Made by a program: the position numbers and the translations under genes. From positions 1-25,186 of the IMG/VR virus record IMGVR_UViG_3300033144_000557: a stretch of DNA of 25,186 nucleotides. One strand, 5' to 3'. The notes under the pieces were generated by a model, which was not told the origin of the DNA, ran no database searches, and was given only the letters and a program-made list of their open reading frames with translations. Within the stretch, counting starts at the first letter, position 1. Each line of letters opens with the position of its first letter. Below are positions 7,621-15,678 of this stretch, piece after piece. The stretch comes from a virus.

Positions 7621-8607
7621 ATGGCTATAAATGTAAACACGGTATATACAACAGTGTTGAGTATTCTTAATAAAGAACAAAGAGGGTATTTAACACCAGA
7701 TGAATTTAATAAAACAGCAACTCAAGTTCAATTAGAAATTTTTGAAAACTTGTTTGCTGATTATACCCAGTTTCTAAGAATGCCAAAGCTAGAAACAGAG
7801 TATGCTTCTAAAGTAGACCACGCTTATGAAGAAATTCAATTTTTTGAAGAAACTAAAGAAGCTGAAAGTTTTGAGTTTCCAAACATATATGAACAACCCA
7901 ACTCTTCAGGTGTTTTAGATGCTATGATAACTAATGCAGGTGTAGATAACGTAGATGGATTAGCAACTACTTTTGCAGTAACAGGATCTGGCTCGGGTTG
8001 TATAGTTGATGTAGATGAAACAGGTGGCAATGTAATGTCTATAAGTATAAACGAACCTGGATCAGGTTATAAAGTGGGTGATATAATAGGTATAGTTTCA
8101 GGTGTGAGTGAAGCTAGGTTTGTAGTAAAATCTTTAACTCCAGGTGTTTACAGATTAGGCTCTGTTTACTACGTTGACTACCCTAATAACACTGAAATAT
8201 CTATACTAGATAAAAGAGAATATAACCAACAGATACTATCTCCAATACTACAACCATCTAAAAACTTTCCTATAGCAACTTACCAAAAAGACAAACTAAC
8301 TGTTTACCCTCCTTTTGAGAATCAAGCAACTAGTAATATATTATTTAACTATGTTAGAAAACCTAAGAACGTTGTTTGGGCTTATGGTATTGGTGATTTA
8401 GACCAATATATATGGGATCAGGCTTATACTGGAGCTTCTGCTATAACTCCTTCAACTGGCTCTGTAGATTTTGAATTAAGTGAAACTTTTCAAACTCAAG
8501 TAATATTAGAAGTTTTAAAGTATAGCGGTGTAATAATTAAAGATCCGCAAATAATTCAAGCTGCTGCTCAAGAATTACAAGCTAACGAAGCAAATCAAAA
8601 AAGATAA
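7621..8607 (+). CDS. Putative tail ring/connector protein with inserted beta module
   Basis: This protein has 328 residues. Residues 1-85 and ~180-328 look like one helical-rich body (VYTTVLSILNKEQRGYLTPDEFNKTATQVQLEIFENLF, split here by feature: the start LTPDEFNKTATQVQ is a pattern seen in phage ring or connector proteins). Residues ~100-170 look like a separate beta module containing FAVTGSGSGCIVDV and NEPGSGYKVGDII, a Gly-rich 'GSGY..GD' pattern common in phage tail and baseplate proteins, seemingly inserted into the body. The C terminus is Ala/Gln-rich helix (IIQAAAQELQANEANQKR). The next gene begins three bases after the stop, which points to co-translation. By gene order it would be one of the tail rings below the portal in crAss-like virions. 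The exact ring cannot be assigned from sequence. Confidence 0.6.
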   Translation: MAINVNTVYTTVLSILNKEQRGYLTPDEFNKTATQVQLEIFENLFADYTQFLRMPKLETEYASKVDHAYEEIQFFEETKEAESFEFPNIYEQPNSSGVLDAMITNAGVDNVDGLATTFAVTGSGSGCIVDVDETGGNVMSISINEPGSGYKVGDIIGIVSGVSEARFVVKSLTPGVYRLGSVYYVDYPNNTEISILDKREYNQQILSPILQPSKNFPIATYQKDKLTVYPPFENQATSNILFNYVRKPKNVVWAYGIGDLDQYIWDQAYTGASAITPSTGSVDFELSETFQTQVILEVLKYSGVIIKDPQIIQAAAQELQANEANQKR

Positions 8608-9746: not shown

Positions 9747-12700
9747 ATGGCTCAAATGAAAAACAATTTCGTCAAGTCTAAAATGAATAAAGACTTAGAC
9801 GATAGGCTTTTACAACCCGGAGAATATAGAGATGCTAGAAATGTAAACGTAAGCAGATCAGAAGGAGACGACGTAGGTGCTTTAGAGAATGTTTTAGGTA
9901 ATACATTTTACACTAATTTCACTAACAATAATCCAAACGTTGAAATAATTGGTTATATAAAAGATGAGGAAACTAACAGTATATTTGCTTTTTGTACAGA
10001 TTACACTGACGAATCGTTTAACAACTTAAATAATCCAGCTCCATATAATGCTAAATGTTTAATAGTTTACAAACCTGGATTTGGACCCGCTAAAATCATA
10101 GTTGAAGGTAGATTTTTAAACTTTTCTAAAACACATAAAATATTAAATTCAGATTTACTAGAAGATTTATTGTTCTGGACAGATGACAGAAATCAACCTA
10201 GAAAAATTAACTGGAAAAAAGCAGCTGAAGATCCAAACTATTACTATGATGAAGATCATATATCAGTTGCTAAGTATTATCCATATCAACCGCCTTTACT
10301 TCAAAAAGAAACTACACTAGATTCTACAGAGTTTGAATTGTGGGATACAGACTATCCAGGTGAAGATGTGGGTGCTGGAATTCCTTCTACTTATTATAAA
10401 ATAATAGGGCCAAACCCTCAAGAAACTATAAATAAGTTAAGAGTAGGTATGGAAGTTATATGTTATACTACAAGTGCTGGTGACAATTATTCTTTTCCTA
10501 AATTTAGAGCTTTTATAATTGAAAGAAAATCAACAACTACTGGAACTCCAAATTTTGCTTACTTCAAAATAAACTTAAATCAATCTGTAGCACCATTGAG
10601 TGGCGGTAATGACGTTACTCCTTTTGAAAGTGAGAATTTAAGTTCAATAACTTTCGCTTCAGCTACTAGTCAAAACCAGTTTGATGAATACTTAACACCT
10701 CATCAATATTTAAAATCTTCAGATTGGAGTGGTTTAAGCGTTGCTGTTACTGGTTCTGCTTGGGTTGTACAGGTTGGTATGCAAATAACTAGCCACGAAA
10801 TAGCAAACCCACCGATAATAACAGAAGTTGCTGAGGTAAGAGATAACACTACAGGTTATGTAACTGGTTATCAAATAACATTAGATAAATCTTGTCAAGA
10901 TCCTTCTATTGATAATAATCTTACCGGTCAGTATGCTTATCTTAGTTGGTACAATCCTAATTACATAAGCTCTTGGCCTGGTGATAGATTACTTATGGAA
11001 GATAAATTTATAAGGTTTGCTTATAGATTTAAGTTTGATGATGGTGAATACTCGTTAATATCTCCATTTACTCAACCAGCTTTCATACCTAAGCAAAATG
11101 GATACATAGTGACTGAAAGTACACCCGGTGTTGATAATAACTTTTCAGATCAAGCTATATCAATAGCTAGTAGTACAACCATAAGTACTTTCGAAAACTC
11201 TGTTAATAATGTGGATATACAAATACCTTTTGAGTTTAACTGTAATGAACTAAAAGACAGATTAAAAATAGAGGAAGTAGATATAATATACCACGAGTCT
11301 GATGGTTTAGCTATGTCTATTATAGAAACAATACCTCTAACTGATCCAGGTTTTTCTCAAAATAATACTAAAATATTTACTTACGATTATCAATCTAAAA
11401 AGCCTTTTAGAACTCTACCAGAAAAAGAAACAATAAGAGTTTTTGACAAAGTTCCTGTAAGGGCTAAAACTCAATCTGTATCGGGTAATAGAGTTATATA
11501 TGGGAATATACTAGATAAACATTCACCACCAGAGAGTTTACCTTATAATGTTACTATAAGTGAAAAATATACACCTGGTAAATACTCTAGAATAGGAGAG
11601 AATTATCCAGAGGTACGTAAACAAAGTTTATTACCGGCGGTTGCTTACCCGTATCACACTGTTAAACAAAACAGAACATACCAAGTAGGAATAGTGTTGT
11701 CAGATAGATATGGAAGACAAACAGATGTAGTGCTTTCTTCATTAACTAACTTTGCACAAAGTCAAGATAATAGCGATGAGCAATTTGATGCATCTACTGT
11801 TTATCATCCTTACCCAGATAGCGTAGAAGATTTACTACCTTCTGATTGGATGGGAGACTCTATAAAACTTCTTTGGACTGATGTAATACCAAGTACACTA
11901 GCTAATATAGAGGGTTATCCAGGTTTATACAAACCTAAAGAGTATGTTAAAATAGGTGAACAAAACTTAGACAATGGAGGAGCTTTTGTTCCGCAAGGAG
12001 ATAGTAATGCTGATAAATATAACAATGTAACTGTAGGTGATATAATAACAGCTGTAGAACTAGAAGAAGAAGAACCATTTATAGGTGTTGTAGACGGTGT
12101 TATACCATCAGGCGTTGATAATAACTATCCTAATGGTGCTATATTTTTTCAACCTGATGTTGAAATAGCACTTGATGAACCGGTTACCTTTCACTCACCT
12201 GGAAACGCCCTTGGTTTTTATACTTATAAAGTAGTGGTTAAACAGCAAGCTGAAGAATATTATAATGTTTATTTAGGACAAATAACAAACATCACTACTG
12301 ATCAAGTGGTTTTGAAAAACACTGGTGGTGGTGCTGCTCTTCAATATAGAGACTTTTATTGTACTAGTTTAATATCTGACAATGTAAATAAAATTCCTGC
12401 GGATCTTATTGAGGTAACTCCAGAGCAAACTCAATTTGGTACCAGTGATACATTAGTTTACCCTAGAGTAGGTGCACATGTTAAACCAGGTGATGAAATA
12501 GCGGATTATTCAACACAATTTTACTATGGTCAAACTCCCGCGTCTATTGCTGCTTGGGGTAAAATGAAAGACTTAGGTTTTCAAGAACCTCAAGATGCCT
12601 CTGTTGAATATCCAAAGTCTAAAGGTGTTTGGTCTGCTTCTAACAATCCTGTTATGGTAGCTTTAGGTATGGCAGATAGAAGATCAATAGGTATTCACCC

Positions 12701-13952
12701 TGACAATACTAGTTCTCAAAGTATATTTGCAGCTGTAGAAGTTAAGCCAACAGAAACTAGATTAGACATATATTGGGAAACGTCAACTACTGGGTTAATA
12801 TCATCTTTAAACAATGAAATATCTGATGGGCCTAGTGCTACTCCAATACCACCAGATCCAGATCCATTTGAACCGCCTGTTAAAGCAGATGCTATTAGAT
12901 ATACAAATTGTTCTGACAATAGTGACTTTGTATATTCTAGCTTGCCTTTTGATTTTGATGGTGAGAACATAACTGCTTTTATATATAATTGTGAAACTTA
13001 CGATTTAGCAAGTGAGTTTATAGGAGATTTACCAGAAGGACAAGATACTATTACACAAGATGAAGTAACAGGTGTTACTGATTGTAATGTAGTTTGTTTA
13101 AGTGAATATACTAAATGTGCAGACTCTTGCGATCTAAGTGCTCCTAATACTGTTTATTTTGATTCTGACGAACCATATGTTGTTTTTGAATTAACTATAA
13201 CGGGTTCTGAAGTTTGTTATACTAGAGAAGGAAGTTATCAAGGTCAACCTACTCCAAATGTAGAGTTTGTTAGAAGTATAAACGATCCTTGCGATGAAAT
13301 AGAATGCAGAACTTTTATTTATGATTTAGCTAAATGTGTTGAAAGCACAAGTGGTCCAGGAAATTTAAGAATTAGAAAAAGTATAATAGAAGGTCAAGGC
13401 TTTCAAACAGGTGACGTTGTTGTTGTTCAATTTGCAGCTTATAAGACTTGTTATACTATAGAGGGTGAGTCTTGCGATACAGTTCTCAATGGAGGTTTGA
13501 TAGCTATAGAAAACTCAACTGCTACAAACTGTGCGGATGAAAGATGTATACAAGAAGAGCCTGTTAGTTACAGATACTTCTTTAACAACCCTTCTGCTAC
13601 TGATGGTTTAAGTTGTGATTTCTCAACACAAGGAGCTGTAGTTGTTAGGTTTGAAGATACATATTCACCAATGCCAAGTGATGGACCATGTGTGGTAAGA
13701 GTTGACTTCTTACACTTAAATCCTACTCCTCCAGATCAATCATGTTGGATTAGAGATAATGGAAATCCAGGTTTTAACTTGGCAGCATGGGGAGAAACAA
13801 ATGAAGCTACGTGGAACGAAGCGGTTGCAAATAACACAGCTGCAGATGGTTTAGAGGTTTATCCAGCTACTAATGCTAGTGTTAATGAAATATGTCCTTT
13901 ATGTGTGTCTGATGCAACGGACGATGGAATTAATCCAGATCCAGGAGGTTAA
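9747..13952 (+). CDS. Large tail stabilisation / muzzle-like protein
   Basis: This 1401-residue protein opens with SKMNKDLDDRLLQPGEYRDA and SEGDDVGALENVLGN (residues ~10-50), a hallmark of the large stabilisation or 'muzzle' proteins that close the tail tube in crAss-like and related marine phages. Residues ~50-1040 are beta-rich with many Asp, Asn, Thr and Tyr, consistent with a beta-propeller or multi-strand tail protein; they hold only six cysteines. From residue 1055 to 1386 there are 19 cysteines, arranged in three repeats of about 70-75 residues (listed separately). A Pro/Asp linker (PIPPDPDPFEPP, ~1033-1044) precedes that region. The protein ends in NPDPGG. The gene is followed after 13 bases by a 570-residue gene that looks like the remaining part of the same functional protein. 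No signal peptide or membrane segment is seen. Confidence 0.78.
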   Translation: MAQMKNNFVKSKMNKDLDDRLLQPGEYRDARNVNVSRSEGDDVGALENVLGNTFYTNFTNNNPNVEIIGYIKDEETNSIFAFCTDYTDESFNNLNNPAPYNAKCLIVYKPGFGPAKIIVEGRFLNFSKTHKILNSDLLEDLLFWTDDRNQPRKINWKKAAEDPNYYYDEDHISVAKYYPYQPPLLQKETTLDSTEFELWDTDYPGEDVGAGIPSTYYKIIGPNPQETINKLRVGMEVICYTTSAGDNYSFPKFRAFIIERKSTTTGTPNFAYFKINLNQSVAPLSGGNDVTPFESENLSSITFASATSQNQFDEYLTPHQYLKSSDWSGLSVAVTGSAWVVQVGMQITSHEIANPPIITEVAEVRDNTTGYVTGYQITLDKSCQDPSIDNNLTGQYAYLSWYNPNYISSWPGDRLLMEDKFIRFAYRFKFDDGEYSLISPFTQPAFIPKQNGYIVTESTPGVDNNFSDQAISIASSTTISTFENSVNNVDIQIPFEFNCNELKDRLKIEEVDIIYHESDGLAMSIIETIPLTDPGFSQNNTKIFTYDYQSKKPFRTLPEKETIRVFDKVPVRAKTQSVSGNRVIYGNILDKHSPPESLPYNVTISEKYTPGKYSRIGENYPEVRKQSLLPAVAYPYHTVKQNRTYQVGIVLSDRYGRQTDVVLSSLTNFAQSQDNSDEQFDASTVYHPYPDSVEDLLPSDWMGDSIKLLWTDVIPSTLANIEGYPGLYKPKEYVKIGEQNLDNGGAFVPQGDSNADKYNNVTVGDIITAVELEEEEPFIGVVDGVIPSGVDNNYPNGAIFFQPDVEIALDEPVTFHSPGNALGFYTYKVVVKQQAEEYYNVYLGQITNITTDQVVLKNTGGGAALQYRDFYCTSLISDNVNKIPADLIEVTPEQTQFGTSDTLVYPRVGAHVKPGDEIADYSTQFYYGQTPASIAAWGKMKDLGFQEPQDASVEYPKSKGVWSASNNPVMVALGMADRRSIGIHPDNTSSQSIFAAVEVKPTETRLDIYWETSTTGLISSLNNEISDGPSATPIPPDPDPFEPPVKADAIRYTNCSDNSDFVYSSLPFDFDGENITAFIYNCETYDLASEFIGDLPEGQDTITQDEVTGVTDCNVVCLSEYTKCADSCDLSAPNTVYFDSDEPYVVFELTITGSEVCYTREGSYQGQPTPNVEFVRSINDPCDEIECRTFIYDLAKCVESTSGPGNLRIRKSIIEGQGFQTGDVVVVQFAAYKTCYTIEGESCDTVLNGGLIAIENSTATNCADERCIQEEPVSYRYFFNNPSATDGLSCDFSTQGAVVVRFEDTYSPMPSDGPCVVRVDFLHLNPTPPDQSCWIRDNGNPGFNLAAWGETNEATWNEAVANNTAADGLEVYPATNASVNEICPLCVSDATDDGINPDPGG
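12909..13547 (+). repeat. Three tandem cysteine-rich protein modules
   Basis: Within the muzzle-like protein, cysteines recur in register: C1055/C1123/C1197 open each unit after an aromatic residue; C1082, C1157 and C1235 follow (the last two as CYT-x-EG); and C1113-C1117, C1182-C1187 and C1262-C1267 close each unit as a near pair (CDEIEC and CADERC in units two and three). Spacing of equivalent positions is 68-80 residues. DNA identity between units is low, so the repeats are old. Confidence 0.7.
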
Positions 13953-13965
13953 TAAAATATAGATT

Positions 13966-15678
13966 ATGAGTTTAGTTATAGAAGTAGATTTTTTTAATTC
14001 ATATATAGTAAGAAAAGTAAGGTCACAAAGGTCTAACGTTTTCTTTTCACAAAATGGTACGTGGTGGCCTGGAGCTACTAAGCAAGGTGGTTATGGTACT
14101 TACGCTAATCAATCCGCAGATAATTGGTACATAGAAGAAAGCAGGATAAGAGGTGGCTTTAACAACGCTTCAACTAGACAAGGAGTTAGAGCTTATTTAG
14201 ATGATCCAAATCCACTTCAACAAAATAGAAAAGCAACTTTAATATACTCAGGTATATATAACTCTAGAACTGGTATTAATCAAACTAACGTATTTTCTGT
14301 AGGAACAGACATAACTAGATCTATGGATCCTTCACATGGTAGTATACAGTTAACTTATGCTGAGGACACCAACTTGATAGTTTGGCAAGAAAATAGAATA
14401 CATAGGGCTTTAATTGACAAAGACACTATATATACAACAGAAAGTGGTACTCAAACTCAAGCAGGTGCAGCTGTAATAGGTCAGTTAACACCATATAAAG
14501 GAGAGTATGGAATAAGTAAAAATCCAGAATCTTTTGCAATATATAACTATAGGAAATACTTTGCTGATCGTAATAGAAATGCTATAATGAGGTTATCTAA
14601 TGACGGTTTAACTGAGATAAGCATGTATGGTATGATGGATTGGTTTAGAGATAATTTAGCTGAAATGAATTTTGATAGTTCAGTTAACAATTTCAAACCT
14701 TTTATATCTTGCACTGTTTCAGAAGTAGCTGGTGCAAACTCTTTTATATTAAATGTAGAAGGAGATAATATAGATTTGATAACTCCAGGGATGCAAATCA
14801 ATTTTGGCAACGGTGTTTTTACGCCTAACGATTTAACGGTTAGCGTAATATTAGATAATAATGGTTCTAAAAAGCTATTTTTAAGTGGTCCTGTAGTTGA
14901 TCAAAGAGAAGTTGGAGACGTTGTTAACTTTGAAGTAAGCAACAAGTCGCAAATAATTGGTGGTTGGGATATACATAATAAAAACTATGTTGTGTCATTA
15001 CAAAGGACTCCAGGTATGAAAGATTTTAATACTGGTAGTATAGGTCATAAAGATGAAACTTTAGTGTTTGATGAAAAAATAAACGGCTGGGTTTCGTTCA
15101 TGGATTTTATACCTAGCTTTATGTTTAGTATTGTAAATAAATTCTACACTACATTAAAGAATGATGTTTATGAACATTACTATGATGACGTTCCTCAGTT
15201 AACTTTTAGGTCTAGATTCTATGATGTAGATTACGGTTCAGATATAACCTTTGTGTTTAATCAAGGACCTTCCATCATGAAGACTTTTAGCACTATAAGT
15301 TATGAAGGAAGTAGTGGTTGGGAAGTGGAAGCTTTTAAATCTGGTAAAGAAGGTTTTGATTCGGTGGATGGCACTTGGGTTGAGTTTGCTGATGACATAA
15401 AAAGAATAAGAAGTTACGCTGAAGGCTTGTATTTAGATCCAGTTACACAACAACCAACAAGAGCTGGTTTTAATAGAAAAGAAAATAAGTATGTTGCGAA
15501 CTTAGTAGCTAAGTCTACACCTAGACCTGGTGAAGTTAGATTTGGTCCAGACTTAACAGGTATAAAAGGTTATTTTGCAACAGTTAAAATAAAAACCGAT
15601 GAGACAACTGATCCAGGTGGTATTAAAGAATTATGGTCAGCTGGTACAGAGTTTTCTCAAAGCAATGGTTTTCAATAA
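13966..15678 (+). CDS. Second muzzle/stabilisation-type tail protein
   Basis: This 570-residue protein contains EYGISKNPESFAIYNYRKYF followed by ADRNRNAIMRLSNDGLTEIS and YGMMDWFRDNL (residues ~184-230), a block I associate with the distal half of the stabilisation or muzzle protein in crAss-like and marine phages. Flanking sequence is beta-rich with many aromatic residues (FFSQNGTWWPGATKQGG, about residue 27 onward), and the C-terminal ~100 residues carry 'APRPGEV-like' loops (STPRPGEVRFG) and a final strand-rich tail. It has a single cysteine, in sharp contrast to the C terminus of its upstream neighbour. The gap to that neighbour is only 13 bases and both are in the same direction, though in different frames. 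The likely role is closing and stabilising the tail tube together with the 1401-residue protein. Confidence 0.72.
   Translation: MSLVIEVDFFNSYIVRKVRSQRSNVFFSQNGTWWPGATKQGGYGTYANQSADNWYIEESRIRGGFNNASTRQGVRAYLDDPNPLQQNRKATLIYSGIYNSRTGINQTNVFSVGTDITRSMDPSHGSIQLTYAEDTNLIVWQENRIHRALIDKDTIYTTESGTQTQAGAAVIGQLTPYKGEYGISKNPESFAIYNYRKYFADRNRNAIMRLSNDGLTEISMYGMMDWFRDNLAEMNFDSSVNNFKPFISCTVSEVAGANSFILNVEGDNIDLITPGMQINFGNGVFTPNDLTVSVILDNNGSKKLFLSGPVVDQREVGDVVNFEVSNKSQIIGGWDIHNKNYVVSLQRTPGMKDFNTGSIGHKDETLVFDEKINGWVSFMDFIPSFMFSIVNKFYTTLKNDVYEHYYDDVPQLTFRSRFYDVDYGSDITFVFNQGPSIMKTFSTISYEGSSGWEVEAFKSGKEGFDSVDGTWVEFADDIKRIRSYAEGLYLDPVTQQPTRAGFNRKENKYVANLVAKSTPRPGEVRFGPDLTGIKGYFATVKIKTDETTDPGGIKELWSAGTEFSQSNGFQ

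Follow-up and report, generated by a model that had tools for sequence, protein, structure and literature searches.

Among the closest described counterparts of the locus analysed here is gp44, the muzzle of phage phiCrAss001 (crAss001). Muzzles of this type plug the tail tip as hexamers that gate ejection, and their fold comprises a propeller, IG domains and a crass domain. In the portions of the crAss001 structure paper drawn on here (PMC10172136), its crass domain is described as built from loop insertions of IG2, namely E-F (residues 453-904) and G-H (residues 940-1012). The same portions propose that the crass domain is likely to touch the cell, that muzzle length varies through insertions into the crass and IG2 regions, and that such insertions alter the tail-tip surface.

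We analysed a 25,186-nucleotide stretch of a marine crAss-like phage (IMG/VR record IMGVR_UViG_3300033144_000557, positions 1 to 25,186; the window). ORF 9747-13952 (+) encodes a 1401-aa protein, has TerL, portal and head protein genes as neighbours, and matches phrog_14478 at 1.9e-50; the next ORF, 13966-15678, aligns with a region further along that profile. The second ORF also matches PF25731 (crAss_MUZ, 34.6 bits) and PF25729 (crAss_MUZ_C, 34.8 bits), with a cut-off of 27 for each. No Pfam model matched the window N-half, PF25731 was matched by 7 of 22 aligned muzzle N-halves, and profile searches of both halves against PDB sequences gave no match. Analysis by hhalign revealed that the two window ORFs correspond to the N- and C-halves of a single ORF in phi38:1, elemoF and the related contig L043. 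From the phrog_14478, Pfam and hhalign matches, we therefore identify ORF 9747-13952 as the N-half of a crAss-type muzzle that is divided between two genes. The sequence-only reading had called the protein muzzle-like; its family is borne out by the profile match and by the structural match to the crAss001 muzzle described below, but the ORF is the N-half alone and not the whole protein. The muzzle is fused as one ORF in L043, L146, phi38:1, elemoF and crAss001, and a two-gene muzzle is the rule in the marine clade, among the matches listed. In the fused L043 protein, a short loop joins the two conserved strands that flank the split in the window. The features of the locus are as follows.

9747..12866, + strand: muzzle N-half core, residues 1-1040, matching phrog_14478 and ending in the conserved strand LDIYWETSTTGLISSLN
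12840..12881, + strand: Pro/Asp-rich linker TPIPPDPDPFEPPV, common to the tail-less relative L002 (DPDPFLPPIIEK, followed directly by a stop)
12882..13100, + strand: Cys unit M1, residues 1046-1118, with C1055, C1082, C1113 and C1117; resembles the first unit of relatives L003 and L004
13101..13316, + strand: Cys unit M2, residues 1119-1190, with C1124, C1128, C1157, C1182 and C1187
13317..13559, + strand: Cys unit M3, residues 1191-1271, with C1197, C1235, C1243, C1262 and C1267
13560..13916, + strand: M4, a possible divergent fourth Cys unit, residues 1272-1390, with C1290, C1315, C1333, C1383 and C1386
13966..15678, + strand: muzzle C-half, a separate gene of 570 aa, matching PF25731 and PF25729, with first strand IEVDFFNSYIVRK

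The 1401-aa ORF contains 25 cysteines, of which 19 lie at residues 1055-1386 (nt 12909-13904) and 6 earlier, exactly as the sequence-only reading had counted; clustering this strong was equalled by 0 of 20,000 shuffles, and the 13 other window ORFs listed have 0-4 cysteines each. The positions given earlier are right in general, apart from an opener placed at 1123, which is really C1124, and a missed group. With the latter, the cysteines fall into four groups, the candidate fourth (C1290-C1386) carrying a CW at 1333 and a CxxC at 1383/1386. An assembly or frame artefact was ruled out as the source of the tail by its open frame and the conserved gene order, and composition argues against a recent foreign insertion (GC 0.36 in the tail vs 0.34; GC3 0.15 vs 0.18).

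The tail had also been described as three tandem modules in register. The register of the cysteines is weakly supported, the triple-register statistic being 8 where the null averaged 4.4 (P 0.022 with random placement, 0.027 with gap permutation). Smith-Waterman comparison of the six pairs among M1-M4 gave uncorrected P values of 0.044 to 0.82, which are not significant. Similarity of M4 to the other units was likewise not significant (M3-M4, P 0.044-0.053 uncorrected). In hhalign comparisons, a profile combining M1 with the corresponding units of L003 and L004 scored against M2 at a level reached by 0 of 60 shuffles, M2 vs M3 was equalled or exceeded by 4 of 60, and the remaining shuffle-controlled profile comparisons were reached by 7 to 57 of 60. 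That the tail consists of three diverged, old repeat units is plausible, not proven.

Searches for relatives of the tail were consistent with the earlier statement that it belongs to no named family. Pfam-A yielded no family at E ≤1 for residues 1036-1401 and none at 0.01 for residues 1041-1401, so that no lectin or enzyme family in Pfam matches the tail, and PHROGs gave no match. The best PDB hit by sequence (E 0.74) and the matches in plasmids were at chance level, phage sequences returned nothing or E values of 3 or more, and genome contigs returned none. Among viral contigs, the window tail found none, the L004 tail found L004 alone, and the L003 tail found only L003 and L004. A scan of ten viral records found no tail, a weak null since even L004 went undetected with M2+M3. 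An HMM of the module, run on 148 homologs, gave nothing past E 0.3 beyond its own members, whose scores are circular because the HMM contains them.

An AlphaFold2 model of residues 1-1040, built with 46 alignment rows, had a pLDDT of 72.6 and a pTM of 0.71. Comparison with 975 chains by VIA-align placed the crAss001 muzzle first (7qol_P, Z 11.5; 7qok_A, Z 11.4; next chain, 8.7), pairing model residues 62-1022 with residues 66-934 of 7qol_P, such that residue 1022 falls against 934. The fit is coarse and covers the N-half only (474 and 470 residues, rmsd 5.7-6.7 Å, with 5.7 Å over 474). Foldseek returned the same two entries at the top (E 8e-5 and 1e-4) with a poor global superposition (TM about 0.1). 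By eye, window RLDIYWETST resembles gp44 SINIEYTEGD, and EESRIRGGFNNAS of the C-half resembles gp44 ESKVNIDGRYDKN. The extension, of about 360 aa, begins directly after the final strand and helix of the core and the Pro-rich linker. Taken with the span of the G-H insertion (940-1012), the pairing of 1022 with 934 and the likeness of the strands lead us to infer that the muzzle gene is divided, and the Cys extension attached, where the IG2 G-H insertion begins; this insertion contributes to the crass domain at the tail tip. A model of the tail from a 3-row alignment had a mean pLDDT of 34.5, too low to read cysteine pairing.

In a quick IQ-TREE core tree of 46 rows (the window and 45 loci), the window and L002 are sisters (SH-aLRT 97), and L003 and L004 (IMG/VR 3300012936_000553 and 3300012936_000108) adjoin this pair with support of 100. 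L002, the nearest relative of the window, has no tail, and no second copy was found elsewhere in its 64,587-base contig (0 matches). On this tree, either L002 lost the tail or tails were exchanged. The L003 and L004 tails share with that of the window their position, linker and Cys columns, and have a similar first unit; L004 differs in having about two units followed by unrelated sequence, and the L003 tail runs off its contig. Counted in putative units, the tail ranges from zero in L002 through about two in L004 to three or four in the window. Semiglobal alignment of M1+M2 with the L004 tail scored at a level reached by 0 of 1000 shuffles, or 3 of 1000 with the cysteines held. The score of M1 with the opening unit of either the L003 or the L004 tail was reached by 2-10 of 1000 shuffles (P 0.001-0.004 in a second comparison), and the match of the second L004 unit to M2 or M3 was weak, the best being M3 (12/1000 semiglobal, 168/1000 local). 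In the muzzle C-half of L004 (10849-13224), across the gene split from the tail, an insertion of ~220 aa with extra cysteines lies near the N-terminus.

Between L003 and L004, the core has an amino-acid identity of 0.81 (dN 0.122, dS 1.02) and the tail an identity of 0.50 (dN 0.426, dS 1.06), a 3.5-fold higher tail dN that comes from one pair with dS near saturation. Tail dN/dS is about 0.4, all four cysteines of the L003 tail are kept in L004 despite 50% tail identity, and the tail frame is open in the window, L003 and L004.

In relatives, too, the core stops at this motif, and tails at this site were compared across the clade. Of the 148 homologs, 123 were used; once L133 was dropped as the same contig as L034, there were 122 different contigs in which the muzzle N-half is complete and the end of its core defined (109 clusters at 90% core identity). 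A tail of at least 100 aa was present in 98, while 1 had a short tail, 21 had none and 2 were fused to the C-half. In a separate survey of 80 loci, 15 ran off the end of their contig and were excluded. Single-linkage BLAST grouping of 102 tails, including those of the window and L146, gave 11 groups, the largest of 72 (10 groups without L146, later seen to be fused), and the window tail was a singleton. It is also the most Cys-rich of the 102, at 5.26% (next, 3.44%; median, 0.99%). A Pfam scan at E ≤0.01 of 77 aligned tails, comprising the window and 76 others from the 102 after near-duplicates were removed by hand, matched Big_9 in 3, Cadherin in 3, FlgD_ig in 2, and REJ, DUF7619 and crAss_MUZ_C in 1 each. 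The Big_9, Cadherin, FlgD_ig and REJ matches in these few tails are to extracellular beta modules. Tail state was alike in 168 of 178 pairs with core identity of at least 55%, so exchange is occasional and not rapid as a general rule; of the 10 discordant pairs, 8 involve L047, a possibly truncated ORF. The absence of the tail in L002, its fast evolution between L003 and L004, and about ten unrelated tail groups at the same position indirectly favour the earlier suggestion of an exposed, exchangeable element.

Several other observations were made on the muzzle N-halves of the clade. The L047 protein (906 aa) has a much shorter tail than the 91%-identical L051, by truncation or sequence error. 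An extra ORF lies between the muzzle halves in L020 (11614-12483; 289 aa, 7 Cys) and L021 (10767-11432; 221 aa, 5 Cys), whose N-half tails are themselves Cys-rich. Two other positions of the core are decorated: residues 209-354 of the L022 N-half match Fib_succ_major (E 6.6e-20), and residues 1034-1122 of that of L079 match a SUEL lectin below cut-off (27.2 vs 31.4 bits). Part of the N-half in L015, L049, L050, L057, L076 and L081 matches window gene 7621-8607, which suggests an inserted domain common to these six proteins and that gene; L015, L050, L051 and L061 also carry the 7621- and 8611-type genes in duplicate.

We favour, with a probability of roughly 55%, the reading that the tail decorates a muzzle of known kind: it would face the host, be exchangeable and probably be stabilised by disulfides. 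With the tail model at so low a pLDDT, its exposure, disulfides and fold are putative. In the proposed arrangement, the extension would fill the loop that leads from IG2 strand G into the G-H insertion, and the strands of the C-half would complete the muzzle fold in trans. From its place at the G-H loop of the tail-tip crass domain, six copies of the tail would project from the distal muzzle. After release, the 19 cysteines may form mostly intra-unit disulfides in oxidising sea water, yielding small rigid beads that could contact a glycan or receptor on the cell surface, and that might be gained, lost or replaced without upsetting the gatekeeper core. More tentatively, the split at the IG2 G-H loop could have created a free C-terminus at the tail tip that serves the marine clade as a display port for unrelated modules; in the lineage of the window, a previously undescribed family of disulfide beads, varying in unit number, would then determine what the phage touches on its host.

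The cysteines could instead form intermolecular disulfides, between neighbouring muzzle subunits or between the tail and the C-half, that keep the hexameric tip locked until the phage infects, in which case contact with the host would be incidental. The odd number of tail cysteines must leave at least one either free or linked to another chain, and two studies describe disulfides that stabilise the tail barrel and hubs of crAss001 (PMC10172136) and lock the tail of phage Milano (PMC10811340). Yet the close relative L002 encodes a muzzle without the Cys tail, the C-half offers few partners with its single cysteine, and the 3.5-fold dN of the L003/L004 tail contrasts with the slow evolution expected of a clamp, which makes this unlikely. 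The absence of the tail in L002 and its quick change between L003 and L004 would equally suit a dispensable, decaying extension without specific role, tolerated at a permissive C-terminus. This we regard as distinctly improbable in view of the tail dN/dS of about 0.4, the retention of all four cysteines at 50% identity, and the frame kept open in all three tails. Very unlikely, finally, are zinc-ribbon-like modules in which CxxxC, CxxxxC and CxxC motifs hold Zn, so that the units fold before release, while still in the reducing cytoplasm. A close Cys pair does close each unit (1113/1117, 1182/1187, 1262/1267, 1383/1386), but such pairs are not significantly enriched (5 pairs given 19 Cys in 332 residues, P 0.10), spacings vary widely between units, and no Pfam match of any kind was obtained. 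The marine clade turns the proposals of the crAss001 paper on muzzle insertions and cell contact into a testable natural series, in which tails at one defined site are present, absent, replaced or fused across many contigs; if tail type tracks host, tails could provide host-range markers for uncultured marine crAss-like phages.

In the open-licence PMC papers searched, a split muzzle gene with a Cys tail was not found. Variation of muzzle length by insertions is already known from the portions of PMC10172136 cited above, and the split gene with this Cys tail is apparently new. The Milano study (PMC10811340) describes an earlier case of disulfide-rich phage tail components; Milano has a contractile tail and is another type of phage, and the parallel with the window, whose disulfides are putative, implies no homology. 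Cellulophaga phage phi38:1 gp97 (1324 aa, 3 Cys) and Flavobacterium phage elemoF gp22 (1493 aa, 6 Cys) are homologous by hhalign to parts of both window halves, and are single ORFs without a Cys tail. The phiCrAss001 muzzle gp44 (7qok/7qol) belongs to the same family by profile and is the best structural match; it is encoded by a single ORF (1371 aa) and its 10 cysteines are scattered, whereas the window divides its muzzle between two genes and has a Cys-rich extension where they part.
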